DNA from: a virus
IMG/VR virus record: IMGVR_UViG_3300034283_000343
Coordinates: 1-34,323 of that record
Reading direction: 5' to 3' (one strand)
DNA length: 34,323 bases
In this document: positions 411 through 19,353 of the stretch, one piece after another
How positions within the stretch are numbered: position 1 is the first letter of the stretch
How the letters are laid out: each line of letters starts with the position of its first letter
Notes under the pieces: generated by a model
Told to the model about the DNA's origin: nothing
Seen by the model: the letters and a program-made list of their open reading frames with translations, nothing else
Database searches by the model: none
Made by a program: the position numbers and the translations under genes

Positions 411-914
411 TTAGTATTTACGGATGCCGTAAAGGGTTGCTGTGCTGTATTGTACAAAAGAACCACTTAATGATGTAAGTGTTATTGAATTAATTGGTGC
501 TGAATTAGCCCAAAGAGATGCTTGAAGCCAAGCATACGCCTGCGTTGCATTTGTTTCTTGAACGCTGTCATTAGAAACTACTTTAGAATTACTAGAGGCA
601 TAGTTTGAAATATAAAAACTACCAGAAGCAAATGATGATGCTGTGTAAGTAGAGTTATTATTCATTCCATAAGTATAAGCACCTCCAGTATTTCCAGTTC
701 CACCAGCCGTGCTACCATCACCATAAATTGCTTTATCTGAATAACCAGAAGAACTTCCATTAAATTTTAAAGTTAAATAATTTGTATTTGCATTAGCCCT
801 TGTTGAATAATTAACTATTAAATCAGTGTAAGTTTGAGGTATATTATTAAAATCAATAGTGGTTGCGCCACCTGAACCTACGGTTACAGTGGTAATAGGA
901 ATATAGTTTGCCAT
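411..914 (-). CDS. fibre-tip-like paralog, class C, copy 3
   Basis: 167 residues and the last gene of the array. Class C hallmarks are VGSGGATTIDF near the N terminus, the ASSFASGS segment, SNYASSNSKV, and ETNATQAYAWL before LWANSAPINSI. It ends TATLYGIRKY. Its ATG overlaps the stop of the preceding gene (TAATG). It is the same type as the genes at 1971-2489 and 3571-4074. The fold looks like an all-beta receptor-binding or decoration domain. Homologs are familiar as hypothetical proteins next to phage tail fibres; biochemical function is unknown. Confidence 0.85.
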   Translation of the reverse strand: MANYIPITTVTVGSGGATTIDFNNIPQTYTDLIVNYSTRANANTNYLTLKFNGSSSGYSDKAIYGDGSTAGGTGNTGGAYTYGMNNNSTYTASSFASGSFYISNYASSNSKVVSNDSVQETNATQAYAWLQASLWANSAPINSITLTSLSGSFVQYSTATLYGIRKY

Positions 915-1396
915 TATGCCGCCTTGATTCCGTATAGAGTAAAGGATGTTCCGCTTGCGTAGGTGGTGCTAGTCATAGTTGCAGTAATGCTAGTGATAGC
1001 AGCAGTGTTACGCCATAGCCCTATGATTGCGTGTAAATAAGCAGATGGAGTACTTGTTCTACATAACTGATTCTTGAAAGTAGTAGTGTTTGCATAGTTA
1101 GGAATCTGTACAACTAAAGTACTGTTAGTATAAAACTCACCAAGCCACATAAATGTAGAAGAAGTTTGCCTATTACTTCCTGGTGTTGTTCCAGAACCGT
1201 AGATTTGAGTAGCAGAATAGTTGGCTCCTGTGTCACCATTGAACTGCATATAAGCAGTATTGTTAGCACTAGCAGAGCCGTTAACTACTAGAACTAAATC
1301 AGTATAAGTGTTAGGAATATTTGAAAAAGTAACTGATGCTGCGGTAGCAGATAGAGTGTTAGTAGCAATAGGTATATAGGTTGATGGCAATGGCAT
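914..1396 (-). CDS. fibre-tip-like paralog, class A, copy 3
   Basis: 160 residues. Class A is marked by YTDLVLV after the IP motif, NYANTTTFK in the middle, and GLWRNTAAITSIT with the Trp-Arg pair near the C terminus. It ends TLYGIKAA. It overlaps its neighbours by one base on both sides (TAATG). Unlike copies 1 and 2, its junction with the preceding B gene is a direct overlap and not the AAGGGG-TAA-NN-ATG arrangement. I infer a virion surface protein attached to, or exchangeable with, the fibre encoded upstream. Confidence 0.85.
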   Translation of the reverse strand: MPLPSTYIPIATNTLSATAASVTFSNIPNTYTDLVLVVNGSASANNTAYMQFNGDTGANYSATQIYGSGTTPGSNRQTSSTFMWLGEFYTNSTLVVQIPNYANTTTFKNQLCRTSTPSAYLHAIIGLWRNTAAITSITATMTSTTYASGTSFTLYGIKAA

Positions 1397-1971
1397 TATG
1401 CACCTGCTCTCTTGATACCATATAGGGCAAAAGATGTGTATTGTTGAAATGTTCCAGTGTTAGGGGTTATAGAAATTGCCGTAACTGCAGCAGTGTTCAT
1501 CCATAAACCCGATACTAATTCAACACCACCCGAACCATTTGAATCTTGTCCTGCTAAACCACGCATAGTTGTGTACTTTGTTGTATCTTTGTAATCAAGA
1601 ATGTCGTATGTTCCAGTAGCAAACATAGAAGCAGTATTAGGAATACCCCAAGAAGCAACTGTATAGATTTGATTTTGAGATGTTAAACCAGCAGCACCAA
1701 CAGTAGAACCATCTGCGCTCAGGCGATGCCGAGCGTAGTTAGCACCAGTGTCAGAGTTAAATGTCCAATACAATCCTGCCAATGAAGAACCTCTAGCAAA
1801 CCATCTAATTTGTAGATGCTCATAGTCTTGCGGGATAGCACTAAAGGTTACAGTGGCTGTAGATGTGGTTAGCGTAGTAGTAGCCAAAGGAATCATTGCG
1901 CCAGGGTCTACATCACCAGGGGCTGTCAGGTTGCCTGACTTAGATTTGTACTTAAGACTGATGGCTCCCAT
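1396..1971 (-). CDS. fibre-tip-like paralog, class B, copy 3
   Basis: 191 residues. Class B proteins carry an extra N-terminal stretch of 25-30 residues, here MGAISLKYKSKSGNLTAPGD, before the shared domain. They then have YEHLQIRWFARGSS, ILDYKDTTKYTTMRGL, QDSNGSG and GLWMNTAAVTAI. It ends ALYGIKRAGA. The extra N-terminal segment is a candidate docking peptide for the fibre or for the A and C partners. TAATG overlap with the upstream class C gene. Confidence 0.85.
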   Translation of the reverse strand: MGAISLKYKSKSGNLTAPGDVDPGAMIPLATTTLTTSTATVTFSAIPQDYEHLQIRWFARGSSLAGLYWTFNSDTGANYARHRLSADGSTVGAAGLTSQNQIYTVASWGIPNTASMFATGTYDILDYKDTTKYTTMRGLAGQDSNGSGGVELVSGLWMNTAAVTAISITPNTGTFQQYTSFALYGIKRAGA

Positions 1972-2489
1972 TATACTTCCGCCTTAATGCCGTAGAGAGT
2001 GACTGTGCTGTACTGCATAATTGGATAACTTGTATTACCTGTGGCAACATTCAGAGATGTAATGGCTGCTGTGCTTGACCATGTACCTGCGTTCAAGGTT
2101 GCGTATGCCGTAGTCGCATTATTTTCGCCAGTCCCATCCATAGAAAAAGACTTGTAATTGCTAGAGGTATAGTTTGGAATATAAACAGTTGCGCTTCCAA
2201 AGGTATTGGCTTGCGTGGCTACATTTCCTTGAAGGTTTAGAATAGCAATTGCTGCGGTAGTTTGTGAATTTGCAGCAGAACCATTGCCTTGAAGTGTTCT
2301 AGTTGTGCTGTTTGTTGCATCACCATTAGGATAAATAACTAAACTTGCATATTCATTTGGTCTATCGCATTTGGCTGAAATTTCTAATTTTAAATCTGTG
2401 TAATTTTGAGGAATAGCAGAAAGCACTATCTCAGTAATGCCTCCAGAACCAACAGTATACGAGGCTAATTTGCTATATGTATATGCCAT
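1971..2489 (-). CDS. fibre-tip-like paralog, class C, copy 2
   Basis: 172 residues. It has VGSGGITEIVLSAIP, YTDLKLEISAKCDRPNEY, ANTFGSATVYIPNYTSSNYK, GENNATTAYATLNAGTW and a C-terminal QYSTVTLYGIKAEV. Of the three class C copies it is closest to the form common in other phage genomes. It starts directly after the stop of the class A gene with no spacer, and ends in a one-base overlap with the class B gene of cassette 3. Confidence 0.85.
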   Translation of the reverse strand: MAYTYSKLASYTVGSGGITEIVLSAIPQNYTDLKLEISAKCDRPNEYASLVIYPNGDATNSTTRTLQGNGSAANSQTTAAIAILNLQGNVATQANTFGSATVYIPNYTSSNYKSFSMDGTGENNATTAYATLNAGTWSSTAAITSLNVATGNTSYPIMQYSTVTLYGIKAEV

Positions 2490-2984
2490 TTAAGCCGCCA
2501 ATATTCCGTAGAGTGTGAATGTGGAACCATCTAAAAAAGTACTAGATGTTGTGTATAATGTTAGTGAATTAATAGCAGCAGTATTGCGCCATAAACCAAC
2601 TAAGGCTGTTGCTTCTGCTGCAGAATTAAAACGAGTAAGCATTGTTTTGTAAGTAGTAGTATTAGAATAATTATTAAAATTAGTTATTCCACTACCCCAA
2701 GTTCCATTTAAAGAACTTCCAGTTACATTTAAAAAAAGATACGAATTTCCTGTACTTCTTGTAGAGTATGCTGCTCCTAAGTAACCAAATACTTCCGTAT
2801 CACTATAGTTTGTTCCAGTATCTGAGTTAATTCGTAAATATATAGGACTAGAACCAGTACCTTTTGCTTGTGATACTAATACTAAATCGGTATAACCACT
2901 GGGAATACTAGAAAATGTTACTGTATCAGAACTACTAGTTAATTTGGTTGTAGCCAATGGTGTGTAAGTCATACCTGCTGCCAT
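2490..2984 (-). CDS. fibre-tip-like paralog, class A, copy 2
   Basis: 164 residues, with YTDLVLVSQAKG, INSDTGTNYSDTEVFG, NYSNTTTYKTML and LVGLWRNTAAINSLTL, ending FTLYGILAA. Its start lies two bases after the TAA of the class B gene. The ribosome binding site AAGGGG is supplied by that gene's last Lys and Gly codons, an arrangement shared with copy 1. Ser/Thr/Gly/Asn-rich beta protein, no signal peptide, consistent with a structural virion component. Confidence 0.85.
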   Translation of the reverse strand: MAAGMTYTPLATTKLTSSSDTVTFSSIPSGYTDLVLVSQAKGTGSSPIYLRINSDTGTNYSDTEVFGYLGAAYSTRSTGNSYLFLNVTGSSLNGTWGSGITNFNNYSNTTTYKTMLTRFNSAAEATALVGLWRNTAAINSLTLYTTSSTFLDGSTFTLYGILAA

Positions 2985-2986
2985 AA

Positions 2987-3571
2987 TTACCCCTTAATTC
3001 CATATAAAGCCCAGTGACTGTTAGCAACAAAATTAGGACCATTTGCTGGAACAATAGTGATGCTATTAATTGCTGTGGTACTCATCCATAAACCTGAACT
3101 AAGACGAACTTGTCCTGTTCCATTGCTGTCGTAACCATTAAGCGAACGAACAGTTTTATATTTAGAAGTGTTAGCATAATCAAGAATATCAATTACTCCA
3201 ACACCAAAAACTCCAGATGTAGATGATGCTGCTGCAACTACTGAACGAGTGTTAAATGTAATAGATGAGCCATCTGAAAATGAACCAGCGGTTGCGCCGT
3301 CACCATACAAAACATGTGCTGCATAGTTGCCAGCACTGTCAGAATTAAATCTAAGTTGAATATTATCTTCTTGATTTGCTCTGGAGGTTCGAGTAAAAAA
3401 TCTAATTTGTAAATGCTGATAGGTGCTAGGTATAGAACTAAACACTACAGTTGAAGTTGTTGTGTAAGGAGTCACGGTAGCAATAGACTCATACGAGCCA
3501 GGCATAATTACCTGATTGCCAACCTGTGTGCTTCTACTAAAGGAACCTGTCTTAAGACTTCTAATAGCCAT
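2987..3571 (-). CDS. fibre-tip-like paralog, class B, copy 2
   Basis: 194 residues. The N-terminal extension (MAIRSLKTGSFSRSTQVGNQ) precedes the core domain. The core shows YQHLQIRFFTRTSR, RFNSDSAGNYAAHVLYGDG, VIDILDYANTSKYKTVRSL, YDSNGTGQVRLSSGLW and SLYG-like WALYGIKG at the end. TAATG overlap with the class C gene of cassette 1. The extension differs in sequence from those of copies 1 and 3 but keeps a basic Ser/Lys/Gly character. Confidence 0.85.
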   Translation of the reverse strand: MAIRSLKTGSFSRSTQVGNQVIMPGSYESIATVTPYTTTSTVVFSSIPSTYQHLQIRFFTRTSRANQEDNIQLRFNSDSAGNYAAHVLYGDGATAGSFSDGSSITFNTRSVVAAASSTSGVFGVGVIDILDYANTSKYKTVRSLNGYDSNGTGQVRLSSGLWMSTTAINSITIVPANGPNFVANSHWALYGIKG

Positions 3572-4074
3572 TATAGGACTCCGTAAAGTGTAAAGGTTGA
3601 GTTGGTGGCAAATAAACCTGAACCAGGAAATACATCTAACCTACTGATTGCAGTTGTCACTGGATAAAGTCCTGCTGTTAATTGCGTTCTTACTGTTGTT
3701 GCATTGTTTTCACTAACTGCCTCAACCAAAACAGATTTAAATTTATTACTTGTGTAATCAGAAAAATAAAATTGATTACTACCAAAAGCATTAGCGGTGT
3801 AACCACTTTCTGGTTGTCTACCACCTGCTATTGCGTTTTGAGTTGTGCCCGCAGTTGATGCAACTGCAGAACCATTACCATTAAATTGTCTAAAACTATA
3901 GTTAGTTGCAGAGTCGTTATTTATTCTGACAGAAAAACCATCTTCGGCTACAGTTCCACGCGGTGAAGCATATAGAATTAAATCAGTGTACCCTTGAGGT
4001 ATTGAAAGAAATGTGACAACTGAAACTGGTGAACTTACAGTTGTATCAGCAATCTCAAATAATTGTAGCGCCAT
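3571..4074 (-). CDS. fibre-tip-like paralog, class C, copy 1
   Basis: 167 residues. Class C traits are weaker in the first strand (TTVSSPVSVVTFLSIP) but clear later: TANAFGSNQFYFSDYTSNKFK, SENNATTVRTQL, and TAGLYPVTTAISRL in place of the usual LW motif. It ends FTLYGVL. It is the most divergent class C copy, since the otherwise conserved Trp is replaced by Tyr. One-base overlaps on both sides. Confidence 0.82.
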   Translation of the reverse strand: MALQLFEIADTTVSSPVSVVTFLSIPQGYTDLILYASPRGTVAEDGFSVRINNDSATNYSFRQFNGNGSAVASTAGTTQNAIAGGRQPESGYTANAFGSNQFYFSDYTSNKFKSVLVEAVSENNATTVRTQLTAGLYPVTTAISRLDVFPGSGLFATNSTFTLYGVL

Positions 4075-4589
4075 TACTTTGCCGCCTCAATCCCGTAAAG
4101 TTTGAATGTGCAGCCCACGCTCATACTGCCACCACTTTTATGAAACACTTTAATTGCATTGATGGCAGTAGTGCTGCGCCAAAGACCTACATACATAATT
4201 GATAAGTTACCAGTAGCAGCAGAACCACTTTTAGATAAAGTTGATTTGTAGGTAGTAGTATTAGCATAATCATTTATGTGAGCAATTGTTGTTGCGTAAT
4301 CACTATTTTGTGTAGGAATATTTCCAATTGCTATAGAAGTAGAACCAGAAGTTCTTCCAGATACAACAGAAGCCCCATCGCCGTACAAATAAGTTTTAGA
4401 GTAATTAGTTGCTGTGTCAGAATTAAACTGAACCTCTAAACCTTCACCATTAGCAGCATTTGAAAGAACGCTAGTTACTAATACTAAGTCAGTGTAGGTT
4501 GCAGGTATAGAACTAAATGTTATAGATGTAGCAGTAGAACTTAAAGTGTTACTGTTAATCAAAGTGTATGTGCCTGTCTTTGCAGCCAT
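4074..4589 (-). CDS. fibre-tip-like paralog, class A, copy 1
   Basis: 171 residues, with ATYTDLVLVTSVLSN, VQFNSDTATNYSKTYLYGDG, NDYANTTTYKSTLSK and VGLWRSTTAINAIKV, ending FKLYGIEAAK. It starts two bases after the class B stop, with the AAGGGG Shine-Dalgarno made from the B gene's last codons. Length and motif order match copies 2 and 3 of the class. Confidence 0.85.
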   Translation of the reverse strand: MAAKTGTYTLINSNTLSSTATSITFSSIPATYTDLVLVTSVLSNAANGEGLEVQFNSDTATNYSKTYLYGDGASVVSGRTSGSTSIAIGNIPTQNSDYATTIAHINDYANTTTYKSTLSKSGSAATGNLSIMYVGLWRSTTAINAIKVFHKSGGSMSVGCTFKLYGIEAAK

Positions 4590-4591
4590 AG

Positions 4592-5185
4592 TTACCCCTT
4601 GATTCCGTATAATGAGATGCGTGTATATTGAGTAAACAAAGTTCCAACGCCAGGTTCAAACTGAATAGATGTAATAGGATTTGTATTCATCCACATACCA
4701 CTGCCAAATTGAAGAATACCACCAATGCCACTAGCACCAGTTCCATTCATATCTTCTCCACTAAGCAAACGAAGTGTTTTATGTTTGTTAATATTTGTAT
4801 AATCTAAAATATCTACTAAAACAACACCAAACTGTTTGCCAGTATTTTCTACATTTGTTCCAATGACTCCTATGTAATTACCATTATCATTTGCACTACC
4901 ACTAGCAGCGGCTGAACCACCATCTCCGTATATAACGTGAGAAGAGTAATTAGTAGCATAATCATTGTTACAACGAATCTCAATAGAATCTCTACAAAAG
5001 GTTGCTCTATTTGACTGAGCAAATATTCTAAGTTGTAAGTGCTTATATGTTTGCGGTATATCCGTAAACGCAATAGTGGAAACCCCGCCAGCACCAACAA
5101 GGGTGCTAGCGATAGGCTCCATAAAGTTATTCTCTAGCGCAAGGCTGATGCCAGTTGCGCCAGACTTTGCACTAGTAATTGACAT
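4592..5185 (-). CDS. fibre-tip-like paralog, class B, copy 1 (first gene of the array)
   Basis: 197 residues and the longest of the nine. The N-terminal extension is MSITSAKSGATGISLALENN. The core has YKHLQLRIFAQSNR, CNNDYATNYSSHVIYGDGGS, LVDILDYTNINKHKTLRLL, EDMNGTG and a slightly longer loop before FGSGMWMNTNPITSI. It ends ISLYGIKG. It overlaps the 108-residue tail gene by one base (TAATG), linking the array to the fibre operon. Confidence 0.85.
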   Translation of the reverse strand: MSITSAKSGATGISLALENNFMEPIASTLVGAGGVSTIAFTDIPQTYKHLQLRIFAQSNRATFCRDSIEIRCNNDYATNYSSHVIYGDGGSAAASGSANDNGNYIGVIGTNVENTGKQFGVVLVDILDYTNINKHKTLRLLSGEDMNGTGASGIGGILQFGSGMWMNTNPITSIQFEPGVGTLFTQYTRISLYGIKG

Positions 5186-5511
5186 TAGACGGAAGCCTCA
5201 TCTCCAAATGCAGAGAAGGCAAGGTTGGCTGTTGAGGCGTAGATAGTGACAACATCTGTAGTAGCAAGTGTGATACCTACTGTGATGATTGTGGTATCGG
5301 CTGCGCCGACAGTTACATCATAGGCTAGGTAGTGTTGGTTAGCCAGAGTTGCACCTGCTGGGCGTACCGCGATGCGGTAAGTAGCAGATGACGATGCTAG
5401 GTTAGCAATAGAGATAGAAGAGATTACCGCTTCCTTCGCAGAAGGAACTGTGTACAGCGTAGTGGCTGTAGTAGCAGACGGATTAGATTGACCAAGTACT
5501 TTTTTTGCCAT
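5185..5511 (-). CDS. small beta-rich tail-associated protein
   Basis: A 108-residue protein beginning MAKKVLGQSNPSATTATTLY. It has several short strands (AVISSISIANL, YRIAVRPAG, DTTIITVGI, DVVTIYAS) and the motif NQHYLAYDV. Proteins of this length and pattern are frequent beside tail fibre genes in environmental phages and are usually unnamed. It sits 4 bases after the fibre gene and is coupled to the first paralog by TAATG, so a role as adaptor between shaft and tips is a reasonable inference. Confidence 0.8.
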   Translation of the reverse strand: MAKKVLGQSNPSATTATTLYTVPSAKEAVISSISIANLASSSATYRIAVRPAGATLANQHYLAYDVTVGAADTTIITVGITLATTDVVTIYASTANLAFSAFGDEASV

Positions 5512-5515
5512 TTGA

Positions 5516-7246
5516 TTATGCTCCCATTAACATGAAGATTGAAGGTGTAGGGTCGGTTACAATTGTTGACCAAGTTGCTGCTGTGCCGTTTGTGGTTAGA
5601 TACTTTCCTGCATTACCAGTCTGTGATGGTAGTGCGTCTACTGCTCCCCAAGAGGAAACAGTTCCATTTGTTGTTAAGAACTTACCTGAGTTACCAGTCT
5701 GGCTTGGCACTACATACTGAGTTGAGTCTGTAGCAACCAAAGTCTTAGATGATGGAATAGTAGTTCCGTTAATGCTGGTAGCAGTTGCTACACCTAGCAC
5801 AGGAGTTATAAGTGTTGGAGTGTTATCCATTACGAACTTAGTACCAGTACCAGTTTGAGAAGCAATCGAAGTTGCTGCTCCTACTGAAGTAATTGGACCA
5901 GTTAAGTTAGAAGGAGCAAGAACTGTGTTGTCAATATAGTATTTAGTAGCAGCATCTTGAGCATTAGTTGGGTCACCAAGACCAGTAATCTTATTGGTTC
6001 CCATAGCAAGTGCGCCTGACATTGTGCTACCAGACTTGAGTACTACAGTGTCAGAGAAGTTTCCTGTGTCAGCAATAGCAGCGGCAATCTCATCAAGAGT
6101 ATCAAGAGTGCTAGGAGCACCAGCGACTAGGTTAGAAATTGCTGTACCTACATATGCTGTGGTTGCTACCTGAGTAGTGTTGGTACCAGCAGTAGCAGTT
6201 GGAGCAGTAGGCACACCAGTTAACGCTGGGCTTGCCAGCGGAGCATATGTACTTGCTGCTGTAGCAGTAGCCAACTTAGCGTCTAACTGAGTCTGGATAG
6301 CAGAAGTAACACCATCTAAGTATCCAAGTTCAGTAGTAGATACTGTCGCAGATGGAGCAATCTTTGTCCAAGCAATAGCAGCAGAAGCATTTACATCAGC
6401 ATCTACGATACTGTTAGTTGCGTTAATCTTGCTATAAGCAATCTGAGCAGAAGTATTAATATCTGCGTTAACAATTGTATCGTTAGCAATCATTGTGCTA
6501 GTTACAGTGCCAGTGTCACCAGCGGTAATAGCAGTACCTGAAATCTTTGTTTTATCAATTGCTGCTGATGCGTTAATATCTGCGTTTACAATAGCGCCAG
6601 TGCCAATAACTGTAGTAAGGCTTACGTTACCTGTACCATCAAAAGTAACTCCACTTGCTTCTACATCTCCAGTTAATTGGAATGTACGAGCAGTTGCTAA
6701 AGCGGTAGCAGTAGCAGCATTACCTGTTGTAGAACCAGATGAGCCAGTTACGTTACCTGTCAGGTTGCCCGTAAAAGTTCCTGCGATAGCACCAGTGCCA
6801 GTAATGGTTGGGCTAGATAATGTTGGGCTAGTTCCAAATACTAAAGAACCAGTACCTGTTTCATCAGATATAACTCCACGAAGTTGAGCAGATGTTGTTG
6901 CTGCGTGTCCTGCAAGAGTTCCCTCAGCATGTGCATTGGCTTCGTTTAAGTCACGACCAATAACCATGTGTCGAACAATTGCACCAGCAGAGTGGATTGA
7001 ACCACTACCAGCATTGTCAACGCCTCTTTCAATTGTTAAGACAGAACCAGATACTCCAGTTACATCTACAATTTCTTCAACGGCTGTATCTGGGTCAATG
7101 ACAACGGTATAAGTTTCACCACCTGTTGGTGATATTGTAGCCATCAAGTTCGATGCGCTATTTACAGTCATAGTTGTAGCAGTAGCAGTAATGCTGCTGG
7201 TTAATGTAGTTTGCTGGGAACGGGATGAGTATTTTCTAATTGTCAT
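5516..7246 (-). CDS. tail fibre (shaft) protein
   Basis: 576 residues, rich in Ala, Thr, Ser, Gly and Asn. About residues 1-110 form a distinct head domain (QQTTLTSSITATATTMTV, EEIVDVTGVSGSVLTIERG, then HMVIGRDLNEANAHAEG), probably the virion-anchoring part. The rest is repetitive fibre. IVNADINASAAI-type repeats occur three times followed by (D/Y/W)(K/S)(T/K)I. ALTGVPTAPTA and GTNTTQVATTAYV segments are typical of phage fibres. Near the C terminus SQTGN(S/A)GK(F/Y)LTTNGT occurs twice. No chaperone-type or enzymatic domain is seen. It ends with a short hydrophobic tail (SIFMLMGA), and receptor recognition may be delegated to the following paralogs. Confidence 0.88.
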   Translation of the reverse strand: MTIRKYSSRSQQTTLTSSITATATTMTVNSASNLMATISPTGGETYTVVIDPDTAVEEIVDVTGVSGSVLTIERGVDNAGSGSIHSAGAIVRHMVIGRDLNEANAHAEGTLAGHAATTSAQLRGVISDETGTGSLVFGTSPTLSSPTITGTGAIAGTFTGNLTGNVTGSSGSTTGNAATATALATARTFQLTGDVEASGVTFDGTGNVSLTTVIGTGAIVNADINASAAIDKTKISGTAITAGDTGTVTSTMIANDTIVNADINTSAQIAYSKINATNSIVDADVNASAAIAWTKIAPSATVSTTELGYLDGVTSAIQTQLDAKLATATAASTYAPLASPALTGVPTAPTATAGTNTTQVATTAYVGTAISNLVAGAPSTLDTLDEIAAAIADTGNFSDTVVLKSGSTMSGALAMGTNKITGLGDPTNAQDAATKYYIDNTVLAPSNLTGPITSVGAATSIASQTGTGTKFVMDNTPTLITPVLGVATATSINGTTIPSSKTLVATDSTQYVVPSQTGNSGKFLTTNGTVSSWGAVDALPSQTGNAGKYLTTNGTAATWSTIVTDPTPSIFMLMGA

Positions 7247-7257
7247 TTATCTGCCTA

Positions 7258-8196
7258 TCAAAGGGAGTAGTGGACGCGGATAGGATATTTGTCTTGCTGG
7301 TTTTTAATTTCTTCATTTAATCGTTGATTAAACAAAGAATAAATTTGCTTAGTAATTGATTGAGATGAACCATACGGACGCTTGGAATCAACTTCATCTG
7401 CTTGTGGGCTAACCATTGATGCACGTGCTGGGTCAAGATTAGATAACAAACGATAGGTTGCGCCAAGAACAACTAAGTCTTTGCAAGACTCTGGTAGACC
7501 AGTCTGTGTTGTAAACACTTGAGTGTTAGATGCAGCAGTGCTGCCAAAAGGAACTGGGTCAGTAGAGTAGACAACTTGAATAGTTCTACCTGAAGTAATC
7601 ATGTCGTAGATAGATATAGTTTGCTCGCTGCTAAATGCACCTGAGTTGGCATTACCATCAAAGCGGTAATTACGAACAGGTATCCATTCTTTACTTGGAC
7701 CTATTGATTCATAAGCAACGGCAAGAATAGAACGAATGTTTAGACTATCACCAGTAGCAGGTAATCTAAAGGCTGTTGTAGCAATGTTAGATGTAATTGT
7801 AGTTTTATTGGCTGCAAAGATAGATGAACCAATGGCACTAATAGTGTCATTAATAGCACGCTTAATTACAAAGCGTGGAAAGGTAGGAGCAATAGTAACT
7901 TTAGTACCTGCTGTATGTGCAGCAATAGTAGTACCTAGATAACCGCGACCATAAGGAGCGATAGTTGCAGTGTTACCAACTCGGTCATAGTTATCTACCC
8001 AAAGTAGTTCTTCATTAATTTCAATAATACCCTTGCCTACGCTGTCAGTAGATGCAAGCGATAAGTTAATAGGTGCGGCAATAGTTGAAGCGGTTGCTGG
8101 AACGTCTGCTCTAATGTGAGTAGCACGGTCTTGCTGAAGTGTGTAACCTGAAAGGTTCATTGACACTTCATCAATCATGTCTAATAATGTAGTCAT
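7258..8196 (-). CDS. virion connector-like or tail-tube-associated structural protein
   Basis: 312 residues from the ATG at 8196, which overlaps the upstream stop (TAATG). A GTG two codons earlier is possible but less likely. The N terminus (MTTLLDMIDEVSMNLSGYT) is a helix typical of head-completion or neck proteins. It is followed by a beta-rich middle (GIIEINEELLWVDNYD, ATIAPYGRGYLGTT) and a helical C-terminal half (DLVVLGATYRLLSNLDPARA). Similar proteins occur between capsid and fibre genes in environmental phages. I infer a head-to-tail connector or tail hub, without motif-level proof. Confidence 0.65.
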   Translation of the reverse strand: MTTLLDMIDEVSMNLSGYTLQQDRATHIRADVPATASTIAAPINLSLASTDSVGKGIIEINEELLWVDNYDRVGNTATIAPYGRGYLGTTIAAHTAGTKVTIAPTFPRFVIKRAINDTISAIGSSIFAANKTTITSNIATTAFRLPATGDSLNIRSILAVAYESIGPSKEWIPVRNYRFDGNANSGAFSSEQTISIYDMITSGRTIQVVYSTDPVPFGSTAASNTQVFTTQTGLPESCKDLVVLGATYRLLSNLDPARASMVSPQADEVDSKRPYGSSQSITKQIYSLFNQRLNEEIKNQQDKYPIRVHYSL

Positions 8197-8453
8197 TACC
8201 ACTTAACCTTATCTGCCCAATATGCGGCACTCATCTTGCCTTTTGAAATGTTCTTTGCATGACGTGCTTTAAATGATGCTTGACGTGCTGTTGGCTTTCT
8301 GTCACCAACAACACCCTGTTGACCAAAGCGAATAGTCTTAACCTGAGTACCCTCTTTAGCCACAACTACGTGTGATTTCTTCGGATGGTTAGGTGTGCGC
8401 TTAGGCTTGTTAAAGCCTGACACTCCTGCTCGCTTTAGTCTTGGGTCGCTCAT
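8196..8453 (-). CDS. small basic conserved phage protein (DUF6321-like)
   Basis: An 85-residue, strongly basic protein (MSDPRLKRAGVSGFNKPKRT...). It has the pattern KSHVVVAKEG, TIRFGQQG and a C-terminal SFKARHAKNISKGKMSAAYW followed by ADKVKW. I recall this pattern as the small phage family DUF6321, which lies among virion genes and has no known function. Four bases separate it from the preceding 66-residue gene. Its charge suggests nucleic acid contact inside the capsid (inference). Confidence 0.75.
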   Translation of the reverse strand: MSDPRLKRAGVSGFNKPKRTPNHPKKSHVVVAKEGTQVKTIRFGQQGVVGDRKPTARQASFKARHAKNISKGKMSAAYWADKVKW

Positions 8454-13040: not shown

Positions 13041-14233
13041 CAGGTCATTAATCCAAACGCTTTGAGGACGGTGCTTGCATAGTTAGCAGCAGTTTCATGT
13101 GCTGCTTTAGTCTTGCCGTAACGTGGGTCTTGATACATTTTCTTTTGGAAATCACCAAGGCTCATAAGACTTGGACCACTAATAGCCTCAAAGATATCTG
13201 CATCTTCTGATGGGTCTTTAATATTTAACTGTGGCAGTTCGAGAATCCTGCTCTTGTATTCAGCATAAGTATCAATAACATCTTTAACTGTTCCACCTGC
13301 TTGGATGTGGCTAGTCAACGGCTTAAACAATAGTGCTGCTTGTTGTTTAATCTTTTCTTTTTCAGCAGCCAGACCATCTGGAGTAAGCATGTTCTGTGCT
13401 GCGGTTAAGTAGTAACCGCTGCTCTTAGGTAATCCCATTGCTGCTGCATATACTTGCAGATCGTTAATATTCTGAGCAGCCTTGCTACCTGTAGCAAGCA
13501 GTTGATCAATATTCGCAGCACCAATAAGCGGCTTAACAATATCTGCTGCTGTGAGCAGACGCTCAGCATCGCCTAGTCTGCCACCAACTACAACCTGATC
13601 AACAATCTTACCTGTTGCATCAGTAACCGTAGTTACCTTTTGCTTAGAAGTGGTTTCTTGTTTATTGATCTTATCGTAAAAGGCTTGCTTCTCTTGATCG
13701 GTTGCACCACGACCAATTATTTCTTTAAGGTACTCATCAATCTCTACATCTGTTTCAGCCTTGGTTGACAGTACTGTAGTAGTATCTTTTTCAGTACCAG
13801 CCTTAGACTTATCAGCAGTGCTACCACCAGCATTGTAACCAGCAAGAAACGTATTGAAAGGAACAAAGTCTTTCTTATTATTGAACGCATAATTCTGTAC
13901 GTTTTGAATACCTTGAACACTAATAGCATTATCTAAACCAGCAACATAATCATTGTTATTATAGTCTTCTTGAGTAATGAAGTTAGACTTAAGCAAGGCT
14001 TTCTTTAGGGCTTCAATGCCACCATACTTTGCTTTGTACTCACTAATAAACGCTTGACGCGCATCTGCTAAAGCATTATAGATTCTATACTTAACATTTT
14101 TACCGCTACCAGTAACAAATACATATACTTCGCCAGTAGCATCTGCTACATACTTGCGACCATATGCGCTAACAATTCTATACTTAGCATCTTTACCTAG
14201 AAAGTCTGCATCACTTGCAGTTGTATCTGCCAT
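13040..14233 (-). CDS. unrecognised virion protein between the giant protein and the coiled-coil protein
   Basis: 397 residues. The N terminus holds short Tyr-rich repeats (KYRIVSAYGRKYVADATGEVY, later NVKYRIYNALADARQAF). Helical segments follow (IDEYLKEIIGRGATDQEKQA; AADIVKPLIGAANIDQLLA). It ends ETAANYASTVLKAFGLMT. Its ribosome binding site AGGAGG is formed by the Arg-Arg codons at the very end of the 1706-residue gene. No catalytic motif is visible. Likely part of the same internal protein complex as its two neighbours. Confidence 0.6.
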   Translation of the reverse strand: MADTTASDADFLGKDAKYRIVSAYGRKYVADATGEVYVFVTGSGKNVKYRIYNALADARQAFISEYKAKYGGIEALKKALLKSNFITQEDYNNNDYVAGLDNAISVQGIQNVQNYAFNNKKDFVPFNTFLAGYNAGGSTADKSKAGTEKDTTTVLSTKAETDVEIDEYLKEIIGRGATDQEKQAFYDKINKQETTSKQKVTTVTDATGKIVDQVVVGGRLGDAERLLTAADIVKPLIGAANIDQLLATGSKAAQNINDLQVYAAAMGLPKSSGYYLTAAQNMLTPDGLAAEKEKIKQQAALLFKPLTSHIQAGGTVKDVIDTYAEYKSRILELPQLNIKDPSEDADIFEAISGPSLMSLGDFQKKMYQDPRYGKTKAAHETAANYASTVLKAFGLMT

Positions 14234-17200
14234 TATGACCTCCTATTAAATGTTACATATGTATCGCGGGATAGTGTAAATAGAATGTTCTTAAAGATTG
14301 CACGGTATGCTTCAGTTACTGCTAGATCGCCTACCATTAATTCTTTTAAGTCAGCATCAATTTGATCACGGCGTGCTCTCTTTGCCTCAGAACCGCCACC
14401 TGCAAGGCGTGGGTCTTTAGTAAAGGCAACAAAGCCTTCAACCATTTGAATGGCTAGGCTCATGCGAGCACGGGTTGCTGAGTTAATATCTGTCTTAGGA
14501 TTAGCAATAATCTGCTTAACCTTTGACATCAAGTTTTGCTCATCACCAATGGTGTTACCTTCGCCTATGAGCGCACTGTTTAACAGTGGGTTAGATGACT
14601 TAAGGCTATTGCGAGCAGCAGTAGACTGAGCAATAATACGTGCTCTAGCATTAGGGTCTACTGTATTGGCAAGGATTTCTTTTTCTGAATCACCAATGTC
14701 ATAGTAAGACTGCTTGTCTTGTGCTACAAGAATATCTCGATAATAGTTTTCAAGGTCTTTGTTTTCAACAAGACCTGCTGCTTGAATCCAAGTATATGAA
14801 TCAGAAGTAAAGTCACCTACACGTGGAGCAAAAACAAAGGCTGCTTCACCATAAGTCTTAATTAAACTGCTATTAGCAATAGCCCAGTCTTTTAGTTTTT
14901 CTGTATTTTTTACTAGAACCTTAGTTTGTTTATCTGTGCGAGATACAGTATAAACAAGTTTACCTGGGTTCTTTCCAATGAATGTAGCCATTGCTAACTC
15001 ATATGGGTCTGTAATATCACCTTGATTCTTTTCAGTAATCTTATTAAGAATTTCAAAAAACTCTGGTCGTAGACCAGTAATGCCAACATTCTTTAAGTAG
15101 TCTGGAATGTCTAGGCTTTCTTGCATAGTAGGTGCAACTGGCATAATAAGACCTAAGAAAGAACGCAAGGCAACAATGTTATGTGCGCTAATTCTTAAGT
15201 TCTTTAAGTATGCAGCCTTTTCAAATTCAGTAGCATTAACATCTAGAAAGTATCCATTTGCTGCCATGTAAGACATGGCTTGTTGTGCAGCAGTTACTTC
15301 CTGACGTGACTTCTCATTAACAGGTAGCGTTGCCCACAACTTCTGTAAAGATGCTGGGATTACTGCTCTAACAATATCTATATTGTCACCAATATTGCCA
15401 AGGGCAATAGTATCTAGGCGTTCACCTACCTGCTTGGCAAAAGGATTATTTGTATAACCTAATAGGCTTTTAATACCAATAACACTTAGCCCCGCAACGG
15501 GACCAGCAAGCGTAGGCATACCAGAATCCTGTTGGAATGACGGGTTAACCATCTTTAACTTTAATGTAAAGTCATTAAATGCTGGTTGGGAATACCCAGT
15601 ATCACCAGTAAGCACACGCATTGTAGTATCGGTAGCCTTAAAGATAATCTTATCCATAGGCATTACTACATACGGGTCACCCTGATCGTCAATATGTACT
15701 TCACCACGGGCATCAAGCCCTTGATGTACTAAACGTAAACGATAAATAACACGTGGTGTTAGTTTGACTAGACGGAAGATACGGCGTTGGAAATCTTCAG
15801 TTGCTCGATAATAACGACCTACGGTACGTAGGCTAAATGCCGCATTACTGCGAATGTTAGGGTTATCAGCAAACATAAGCACTCTATCTGCTGCATCACG
15901 TGATGCTATTTCTGTATATCTCTTTGCGGATATAGCATCTACCTGCTTACGTAGATATTCTTTGCTTGACTTAGAAGCATAACGTGCTGGTTCGGCTGCA
16001 ATTTGTGCGCTATATAAACCATTAGCAAAAGTTTTTTCAAGACCAACATAAGATTCACGTAACTTAAAGTATGTAACCATAACTGCTGGTTGACGGAACA
16101 AACCGTTAACCTGTCGGTCCATGCCTTCCATTAGTTTGTTACCTAATTTACGAAATGCACCCTCTGGGTCAACAAAGGTAGGGAAATCAATATTTGTATT
16201 AATTTCACCACGTGGCTGAAAGCCATCTGTTAGTTCACGGAAGCGTTCGTAAGGAATGCTCTCTACTGCTGTAGCCCATTTGCGGTTAACAGCACGTGCA
16301 GGTAATACTTTACCAGCATCATCAACACCAAAGCCCTTTTCAAGGTCACTGTATCGGGTAAACTCAAGACGAACAGCATCCATTAACTTTTGATTATAGC
16401 CATCTGCGCTACCATGGAATACAATTTGCATATCCGCAAGCATGCGGAATACTGAATCACGTACAATGCCTACATCATCAATACCTTGCTGTGCTAAATC
16501 AGCAGTGCGGGAAGACATACCCTTAACAGCATTAACAGCAAGTTGATCTTCTACTTTCCACAACTTAAGTGTGTCATCATAGGTTAAACCAGCAGCACGG
16601 GATAGATCATCCATCGCACTTTCAAAGTTAGATTTACCTGTAACAGGATTAATCCCAACTTTTAATCCATTGTTCTGAAAGAACACAGCACCTGGGTCTA
16701 AAACTTTACCGCCAGGCAGTTTTTTAAAGTTAGGAACAAATGTAAGATACCAGTTTTCGTGGTGTGCTGCAGTTAACCAACTCTTATCTTTTAATTCTAA
16801 GTCACGTGTTGATATAGAACGTGTCTTAGAGCCACGCTTAAGTTCTAAATCATTAAGGTGTTTAGTTAATGAACTAAAATCTACATAAGAAGCCATGTTA
16901 TCTTGCGTAAATCGTGCAGATAAACCAGCCTGTGCTACAAGTGAGTTAGCGGTTGAGTTAAGCATTTCTGGTTGATGTATTAATGCCTCAACTAAGAATC
17001 GTTCAGCCTCAGGATTAATGTTTCCGCCAAAAATCTTCATGGCTTCATCACCAATGGCTTCTCTTTTTTGCAGACTTGTCAGTTCTGCCATAGAAACGCC
17101 TTTGCTATCAGCAAATTCTTTTAATAATTCAGCACGTTTTACTTTATCAATAGCATCTTGTGGTGCTTTACCAAAGATTTTCTTTAAACCAGATGAAACG

Positions 17201-19353
17201 GGACCAACTGCTGCAGCAGAACCAGTGAAAGCAGTAGTTACTTTACCCATTCTGGCACCAAGACGGAATGCAAAGTGAAATAAATCCTTGCCAGGTGCGG
17301 TAAGTGCGTACATTAGACCTTCGTCAATAGCAGAACGCATACCTAAACGTGGAAACAGGGTAAGAACTGACCACACATCTGTTACCTTGCGTGCTGTTTC
17401 ACCACCAATAGAGCCACCAATAGCATAAAAGATATTCTTTTTTGATTTAATACTATTAGCCATAGAAGCAATCTCAGCATATGGCAATGAACCAATAGCC
17501 TTTGCTTCTTGATATGGCTGTACAGTATTTAAACTTTGAGCAAGCGTTACTCCATTTTCTTGTCGTACGCTATGCAATGGTGCTGCGGCTAATGCATCAG
17601 CATTAATGTTAATGTTACGCAATACACCCTGTCCTGCTTGACCGCCATACTTTTCGCTAAGGATTTTTTCCATTAGCATTCTGCCTTCAGGCTCGCCATT
17701 AAGACCAGACTTAAACATAATTGCAGCATCAAGGTTACGCATGATGACTACTTGTTCATCTTCTGTAGAATTAATAAACTTAGTTGTCATAAACTCAGCA
17801 AGATCGCGTGGAAGAATTACGCGTGCTTTAGTAGTAAAGTTTTCTGCAGTCATAACTGCATCTGGTCCAAGTCGTACTTCTAGACCAATAGGACTGCGTG
17901 AAGCAAATAGTCCTAGTTTCTTTAAACCTTTAATTTCTGCTTGTGCATCTAGTAACACTTTTGATATAATTGGGTTAGCCATATTATCAAGAGCATCACC
18001 TGCTGTTGAAAGAGCAGTATAAATATCTTCGCCTTTAGCGTCTAACTCTTCTACACTTCTACCTGTTGATTTTAACGGACCAAGATTTTTAGCAGTTGTA
18101 GGATTAAACACACTATCAAGGTAAGAAGTAAAACCATCAGCCATACTACGGTATTTTCTAGCAACAGCAACACCGTTACGATAGTAACTAACACCATCTA
18201 CACGACCATTAAGAAGCAGTTGAACATTTTCTATATTCTCAAAATACTTTTGAGCAGTAGGTGCATCAAACAAACCGTTTTTAGCAAACTTCTCAACTGC
18301 TTCACGATTGCGATAGCCTGGGTTATCAGCAATTAATTCACGATAAGCAACAGTTTTTTCACCAGTAGTTTTTGCTTCAGCAAACTTACGTACTGCTGGA
18401 CCAAGTTGGTTATTCCATAACGTAGCAACTTCTGGTTTAGCAAATACTTCTTCTACGCCAAGTCTAAACTCACCTTGCTTAGCAGCATCTGTTATGTGGT
18501 TTGCTAAACGCTCACCAACAGTAGCGGCTTTAGTAGTACCACCAGTTATCCAAGTCATTGGGTCTACAACGATTTGATATGTAAAGTCAATAGCACCAGA
18601 AATATTTTTAGTCTTGCTGCTAACGTAGTCACCATAAAGACCACCATTAGAAAGTGGTCTGTCATCTAACATGCGTGCAATATCACGACCAGGTGAGAAC
18701 TGTGCGTACTTTGTAGCATCAAGAACTTGTTTAAATGCTGCTTCATCATTGTAGGCTTTAGTTAGTGACGCAAGAATTGCGCTATCTACTTTGCCGTATA
18801 ACTCAACAATCTCACCAGGCTTCTTGCCTGAAAGTAAACCACGTGCTACAAGCACGTCAGTTACACCAAATGTACTTTCTGCTTGCTTTAGCGCATCAGG
18901 GTTATAAAGTTCTTTACCACTCCAAGCGCGGTCCCAAACTTTCTTATTAAGAACGCTTCCCTGTCCAGTCTTTACTTGCTGTGCTACTAAGTATGGAGTA
19001 TTAATTGCACGACCATACTTACCAGCAGCGTTGTAAAGCGAAACTAAAGGACTTGCAAAACCTTTAACAACACTTTTAACCGCACCAGTTGCATAGTCCA
19101 TAAGGCTTGGGTCTTCTTGAGCATATAAAGAATCTTTAAATAAAGTTCTAAGGCTTTCCTGCTGATCTTTTCCAAGAGCACGAAATTCATTTTTAGCAGT
19201 ATCAACATTTAACTTTGAAAGTTTACGGTGCTCCTTTAAAGCAAAACTTAATTGTTCAAGTTGTAGGCGTTCAGCAGCCTTTAGTTTAGCCTGTTTAGCA
19301 GCGGCATAAATGTTTGGTGATACTTCAGCGACAACGGGATTTAGACGCTCCAT
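14233..19353 (-). CDS. 1706-residue giant virion protein (candidate internal/ejected protein)
   Basis: This one frame takes up 15 percent of the window. The protein is largely helical and charged. The N terminus is AAKQAKLKAAERLQLEQLSF, and a Gly/Ala-rich segment at about 85-115 (ATGAVKSVVKGFASPLVSLY) could contact membranes. There is no signal peptide and no repeated tape-measure heptads. I looked for peptidase, lysozyme and T7-like polymerase motifs and found none that are convincing. It follows two small genes after the portal and is coupled by TAATG to its upstream neighbour. Giant proteins of this type in tailless-tape (podovirus-like) genomes are usually packaged in the head and ejected with DNA; that role is inferred from size and context. 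Confidence 0.6.
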   Translation of the reverse strand: MERLNPVVAEVSPNIYAAAKQAKLKAAERLQLEQLSFALKEHRKLSKLNVDTAKNEFRALGKDQQESLRTLFKDSLYAQEDPSLMDYATGAVKSVVKGFASPLVSLYNAAGKYGRAINTPYLVAQQVKTGQGSVLNKKVWDRAWSGKELYNPDALKQAESTFGVTDVLVARGLLSGKKPGEIVELYGKVDSAILASLTKAYNDEAAFKQVLDATKYAQFSPGRDIARMLDDRPLSNGGLYGDYVSSKTKNISGAIDFTYQIVVDPMTWITGGTTKAATVGERLANHITDAAKQGEFRLGVEEVFAKPEVATLWNNQLGPAVRKFAEAKTTGEKTVAYRELIADNPGYRNREAVEKFAKNGLFDAPTAQKYFENIENVQLLLNGRVDGVSYYRNGVAVARKYRSMADGFTSYLDSVFNPTTAKNLGPLKSTGRSVEELDAKGEDIYTALSTAGDALDNMANPIISKVLLDAQAEIKGLKKLGLFASRSPIGLEVRLGPDAVMTAENFTTKARVILPRDLAEFMTTKFINSTEDEQVVIMRNLDAAIMFKSGLNGEPEGRMLMEKILSEKYGGQAGQGVLRNININADALAAAPLHSVRQENGVTLAQSLNTVQPYQEAKAIGSLPYAEIASMANSIKSKKNIFYAIGGSIGGETARKVTDVWSVLTLFPRLGMRSAIDEGLMYALTAPGKDLFHFAFRLGARMGKVTTAFTGSAAAVGPVSSGLKKIFGKAPQDAIDKVKRAELLKEFADSKGVSMAELTSLQKREAIGDEAMKIFGGNINPEAERFLVEALIHQPEMLNSTANSLVAQAGLSARFTQDNMASYVDFSSLTKHLNDLELKRGSKTRSISTRDLELKDKSWLTAAHHENWYLTFVPNFKKLPGGKVLDPGAVFFQNNGLKVGINPVTGKSNFESAMDDLSRAAGLTYDDTLKLWKVEDQLAVNAVKGMSSRTADLAQQGIDDVGIVRDSVFRMLADMQIVFHGSADGYNQKLMDAVRLEFTRYSDLEKGFGVDDAGKVLPARAVNRKWATAVESIPYERFRELTDGFQPRGEINTNIDFPTFVDPEGAFRKLGNKLMEGMDRQVNGLFRQPAVMVTYFKLRESYVGLEKTFANGLYSAQIAAEPARYASKSSKEYLRKQVDAISAKRYTEIASRDAADRVLMFADNPNIRSNAAFSLRTVGRYYRATEDFQRRIFRLVKLTPRVIYRLRLVHQGLDARGEVHIDDQGDPYVVMPMDKIIFKATDTTMRVLTGDTGYSQPAFNDFTLKLKMVNPSFQQDSGMPTLAGPVAGLSVIGIKSLLGYTNNPFAKQVGERLDTIALGNIGDNIDIVRAVIPASLQKLWATLPVNEKSRQEVTAAQQAMSYMAANGYFLDVNATEFEKAAYLKNLRISAHNIVALRSFLGLIMPVAPTMQESLDIPDYLKNVGITGLRPEFFEILNKITEKNQGDITDPYELAMATFIGKNPGKLVYTVSRTDKQTKVLVKNTEKLKDWAIANSSLIKTYGEAAFVFAPRVGDFTSDSYTWIQAAGLVENKDLENYYRDILVAQDKQSYYDIGDSEKEILANTVDPNARARIIAQSTAARNSLKSSNPLLNSALIGEGNTIGDEQNLMSKVKQIIANPKTDINSATRARMSLAIQMVEGFVAFTKDPRLAGGGSEAKRARRDQIDADLKELMVGDLAVTEAYRAIFKNILFTLSRDTYVTFNRRS

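Follow-up and report, generated by a model that had tools for sequence, protein, structure and literature searches.

Receptor-binding tips of phages are usually modelled as homotrimers of a single gene product, and the phage T4 gp37 tip and other receptor-binding tips are homotrimers that terminate a fibre shaft. Heterotrimeric appendages encoded by three adjacent genes are already known from the virophage DSLV2 and the mycobacteriophage Mysterious. The tripartite tail proteins of DSLV2 (QIG59353-QIG59355) were described by Chu et al. 2025, who co-expressed them and demonstrated a 1:1:1 complex by native PAGE and negative-stain EM; the complex was proposed to be a receptor-binding fibre on the virophage capsid (PMC12724248). 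For mycobacteriophage Mysterious, a cryo-EM preprint from 2026 describes a heterotrimer of the similar beta-sandwich proteins gp35, gp36 and gp37 that has a projecting N-terminal arm used in docking (PMC13252515). A literature search returned these two heterotrimer precedents only and no paper on the protein family analyzed in this study.

The window analyzed here is the whole 34,323-bp IMG/VR record IMGVR_UViG_3300034283_000343, which belongs to a freshwater phage. The original prediction had placed nine fibre-tip-like paralogs at positions 411-5185, arranged as three copies of an ordered B-A-C cassette, and all nine ORFs were found there on the minus strand, encoding proteins of 160-197 aa. 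Cassette 1 comprises B1 (4592..5185, 197 aa), A1 (4074..4589, 171 aa) and C1 (3571..4074, 167 aa), cassette 2 comprises B2 (2987..3571, 194 aa), A2 (2490..2984, 164 aa) and C2 (1971..2489, 172 aa), and cassette 3 comprises B3 (1396..1971, 191 aa), A3 (914..1396, 160 aa) and C3 (411..914, 167 aa); a 75-aa ORF (168-395) lies downstream of C3. The nine genes are separated by gaps of 0-2 nt or overlap by 1 nt at stop and start codons. Every pair of the nine proteins can be aligned, with homology throughout, and 10 columns of the alignment are invariant. As in DSLV2, three consecutive related genes, here in one orientation, encode proteins that cluster by position rather than by virus, and as in Mysterious three adjacent genes encode beta-sandwich proteins. 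From the sequence comparisons and structural models given below, the products of one B-A-C cassette very probably form a 1:1:1 pseudo-threefold heterotrimer capping the fibre shaft. Such a head would differ in location from the DSLV2 complex, proposed to sit on the virophage capsid, and from gp35/gp36/gp37 of Mysterious, which form a siphophage baseplate accessory arranged as a ring of six. The likeness to T4 gp37, a trimeric tip that ends a shaft, is a functional analogy, since gp37 is a homotrimer and no sequence relation to it was found.

The window proteins are 35-46% identical inside a class and 24-36% identical across classes. In the unrooted tree of the nine proteins, class A formed a clade with an ultrafast bootstrap of 97 and class C one with 80, and A plus C were separated from B with 99; in a tree of 353 cassettes, B and C each formed a single clade (local support 1.0 and 0.98, respectively) and A had a support of 0.81. 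Same-class proteins thus cluster across cassettes, as predicted, and a grouping of adjacent genes, which had been named as evidence against the arrangement, is not seen. The B-A-C order seen three times in the window is shared by nearly all cassettes of other phages, and this recurrence is far beyond chance. The clearest class marks, numbered by alignment column, are HLQxR and His65 in B, the Arg of LWR and Arg120 in A, and Glu124 of (E/Q)xNxT in C. Near-invariant residues at equivalent columns include His29, Gln31, Arg33, His65 and Arg118 in B, Arg120 in A, and Pro106 and Glu124 in C; column 65 holds His in B, Thr in A and Arg in C, and Arg118 of B, Arg120 of A and Glu124 of C occupy equivalent or neighbouring sites. 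Residues fixed differently at such sites would favour the assembly of one of each subunit over homotrimers. No Pfam family reached the cut-off in a scan of seven cassette proteins, whereas the DSLV2 proteins carry a PF07484 collar domain and a T4 gp37-like fold. PHROG 3145 and 31512 gave partial weak matches to one protein each (E 9e-4 and 5e-3).

IMG/VR was scanned with alignments of classes B, A and C, three alignments from other members and the major capsid protein of the window, and an iterated profile yielded 1,502 members in 453 loci (numbered L below), 350 of which were non-redundant. Cluster sizes were counted for the 218 complete clusters, that is, those away from contig or locus ends, and 215 of them contained exactly three, six or nine genes (190, 21 and 4, respectively), which bears out the expectation that related phages carry arrays in multiples of three. 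Two of the exceptions, L043 and L288, are solitary single-gene fibre ends, and in the third, L106, a triplet is preceded by a 974-aa collagen-repeat fibre with this domain at its C-terminal end. Because any one array scan relied on the motifs of a single class, sets lacking a member would have been picked up, and no missed paralogs were seen on checking the neighbours of the arrays. Flanking genes with a similar terminal motif were considered as extra paralogs and dropped, as they look like shafts or unrelated ORFs.

Within cassettes, the genes are coupled by overlaps or by gaps of at most 12 nt in about 90% of cases. On a tree with 1,059 tips (353 cassettes), the position label changed six times, against a mean of about 503 for shuffled labels. 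A freely broken order in relatives, which would have counted against the prediction, was not encountered; the order is broken in one of about 350 loci, L211, and one slot each in L043 and L220 is filled by another class. In both cassettes of L211 (3386-6670), the first gene encodes an A-class core with an N-terminal extension and the second a B-class core that lacks one, so that the extension stayed with the first position and not with the class when the A and B cores were swapped. Overall, a stretch of 12 or more residues lies ahead of the domain in 98% of B proteins, 5% of A proteins and 7% of C proteins, which upholds the N-terminal extension as a class B trait. Long C-terminal extensions, nearly all of them glycine-rich, were found in 69 C, 49 A and 0 B proteins of the 353 cassettes. 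They are carried by both the A and the C protein of L236 (6198-8800), where PF21722 occurs in the A protein. We picture B as the putative anchor subunit, whose N-terminal extension would act as a docking tag present once per trimer, and A and C as subunits that may bear optional distal glycine-rich extensions.

Two phages isolated on Ca. Planktophila, E7 and F5 (PMC10202952), carry one cassette each, that of F5 running off the end of the record, and the host of the window phage is therefore probably also an actinobacterium. A search of genome contigs found no relatives and so gave no evidence of prophages. Between the head genes of the window, a 1706-aa protein (14233-19353) has no PHROG match, and the sole relative found for it in the phage collection is in Planktophila phage E7 (28% identity over 41%).

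The original prediction had also proposed duplication of a three-gene unit. The three-gene unit was confirmed, but its duplication within this array was not, as the nearest neighbour lies in another phage for 71 of the 73 cassettes of multi-cassette arrays, and recent in-array duplication was rejected on these grounds. Identity among the three cassettes of the window is 42-45%, against 54-60% with cassettes of other phages; the divergent cassettes thus either joined by accretion or have been distinct since ancient times. Of 65 pairs of distinct cassettes that reach 85% identity or more in some slot, 51 drop below 65% in another slot, with none in between, which indicates that single subunits are exchanged inside their slot; metagenome assembly could be the source of some of these mosaics. 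The solitary domains (three sequences) group together apart from A, B and C with a support of 0.94. The family probably goes back to a homotrimeric fibre end encoded by one gene, which underwent a single triplication before the family spread.

The array follows a gene for a fibre shaft protein (5516..7246, minus strand, 576 aa) that ends in TDPTPSIFMLMGA and matches several 'tail fiber protein' PHROGs (best E 3e-22), and shaft homologues that end in the same way lie ahead of the arrays in L009, L176, L173, L010 and L102. Between the shaft gene and cassette 1 lies a gene for a 108-aa protein (5185..5511, minus strand) that matches phrog_1276 (E 4e-9) and phrog_693 'tail fiber protein' (E 3e-5). 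A homologue was found upstream of 54 of 222 arrays, and the protein is proposed to be an adaptor. Upstream of the shaft, a conserved 314-aa protein of phrog_7578 (7258..8202, minus strand) is syntenic in relatives. Three relatives, L252, L253 and L256, have a major capsid protein closely related to that of the window and a homologous shaft followed by quite different tips, which together with the position of the array after the shaft gene marks the array products as putative fibre-tip proteins. The tip of L252 (13549-16350) is a 157-aa protein ending YIYGIKVS, that of L253 (14316-17868) a 408-aa Gly_rich_2/fn3 protein, and that of L256 (14238-17722) a 531-aa protein; the domain type of the glycine-rich extensions in L236 is the one that serves as the alternative single-gene tip in L253. 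Such replacement of tip genes among close relatives, and the passage of alleles between phages, could suggest that the nine genes supply interchangeable tips, of which one at a time is used for host-range switching. This is hardly credible, since the classes are not interchangeable, with six slot changes in the whole tree, the genes form one tight, co-oriented unit, and the N-terminal extension is carried almost exclusively by B.

Association of the three subunits was analyzed by mean-field direct coupling analysis (DCA) of 335 concatenated cassettes, counting inter-protein couplings above z=6. The native pairing gave 26 such couplings, compared with 6 for partners from close relatives and 0-2 for random partners. 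They come from B-A, A-C and C-B pairs alike, although C and B are not neighbours inside a cassette, and many of them fall on the first residues and on the LYGI region, as would fit a subunit contact near the base of the domain. A control with mispaired nearest relatives retained a B-A maximum z of 11.7, and the couplings partly reflect shared ancestry. When couplings trained on single-cassette arrays were applied to two-cassette arrays, they favoured the native over the swapped partner in 49 of 78 comparisons, a modest matching overall (63%) that fell below half for A-C; co-inheritance could be an alternative or contributing source of it. With slot-wise exchange as frequent as described above, the fit between individual alleles would be loose.

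In L094, the B, A and C genes lie in one frame, and the DNA was read with stops as glycine to give a single B-A-C chain. AlphaFold2 modelled this read-through chain with a pTM of 0.78 and a mean pLDDT of 79 from 27 aligned rows, which consisted of full and A-C fusions only; the B part had 8 rows. A pTM this high would not be expected if the three domains, of about 175 aa each, had been placed independently, and the association of the subunits in the model could be imposed by their fusion into one chain. Modelled alone, B2 of the window gave a pLDDT of 89 and a beta-sandwich after residue 26. Rows not recognised as exact locus proteins were omitted from the B alignments. A fold search of solved structures in the PDB gave no match at E<0.001, the best being weakly galectin-like with a TM of at most 0.35 by query length, and a lectin identity was dropped as too weakly matched. 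No PDB chain was matched by sequence or profile search either, and homology to gp35-37 of Mysterious, whose entry may or may not be in the searched copy, was accordingly not detected by profile or at fold E<0.001. Among predicted viral proteins, 114 match the fold at E<0.001, including Stf-repeat and collagen-repeat fibre proteins; from uncultured phages, the single-gene fibre ends BFVD A0A6J7WNA6 (Stf repeat) and A0A6J5MEG8 (collagen repeat) share the same predicted domain with L106 and, each being encoded by one gene, are presumably homotrimeric.

These fibre ends raise the question of whether B, A and C instead form separate homotrimers, stacked in series or placed at different parts of the fibre. 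The single-gene fibres in L106 and L288, presumably homotrimeric, agree with such an arrangement, as does the exchange of subunits singly, and T4-type long fibres, which are built of successive different proteins, offer a parallel. It is nevertheless improbable, because the couplings join all three pairs, C with B included, the fused-chain model has a high pTM, complete triplet clusters occur in multiples of three, with the exception of L106, and each class has fixed, differing and often charged residues at equivalent sites. The predicted heterotrimeric tip is best supported, on the strength of the couplings for all pairs and the fused-chain pTM of 0.78, and each B-A-C cassette would then encode one receptor-binding head of three paralogous beta-sandwich subunits at the end of the shaft.

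The N-terminal extensions of B differ among the cassettes of an array. In the window, B1 begins with tag 1 (5123..5185, minus strand; MSITSAKSGATGISLALENNF), which is conserved at the first position in 5/5 compared three-cassette arrays, and B2 and B3 begin with tag 2 (3500..3571, minus strand; MAIRSLKTGSFSRSTQVGNQVIMP) and tag 3 (1903..1971, minus strand; MGAISLKYKSKSGNLTAPGDVDP), which are likewise conserved by position; tag 2 is ill-defined in the B2 model, with a pLDDT of 54-74. Tags 1 and 3 also occur in L249, which is cut by the contig end and has the same three tags as the window. In five three-cassette arrays, the extensions are 82% identical at the same ordinal versus 31% at different ordinals, while the B domains are 47% versus 42% identical in the same comparison. 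Two-cassette arrays mostly have a different pair of tags. The shaft endings track the tag sets, FMLMGA occurring with the tags of the window and IFMMMGA or IMMMMGA with others. The C-terminal shaft peptides FMLMGA, FMMMGA, IMMMMGA and IMGAY were also seen to covary with the type of small gene that follows and with the B tag sets. This covariation is a candidate docking code, in which the B tags may serve as docking addresses whose partner would be the shaft end or the 108-aa protein.

Phages with two or three cassettes, such as that of the window, would carry a corresponding number of different heads on the virion, each of which, having its own conserved B tag, would probably have its own docking site. 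In a different outcome, the heterotrimer would still form, and cassettes 1-3 would be redundant copies competing for one docking site. The three tags do share a loose pattern (a small residue, Ile, Ser-Leu/Ala-Lys), and L102 has tags 1 and 2 only; this outcome is unlikely all the same, given the identity of the tags by ordinal set against that of the domains. An addressed system, in which up to three different heterotrimeric heads occupy their own docking sites and B, A and C alleles are reassorted slot by slot, is a tentative proposal that we rate at somewhat less than an even chance. No earlier description of multi-cassette addressing or of slot-wise exchange was found, and the accessible account of DSLV2 reports neither multi-cassette arrays nor position-specific tags. 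The predicted widening of host range is plausible.

The family, which has no solved structure or Pfam name and is present in hundreds of viral contigs, apparently represents an obligate three-gene heterotrimer with an apparent division of labour among its three subunits. In host-range prediction and phage annotation, the unit would have to be the cassette and not the gene. The tags and the slot-wise exchange offer a testable route by which aquatic phages may combine specificities, and if the addressed tip system is true, receptor specificity would be set by combinations rather than by individual tip proteins.
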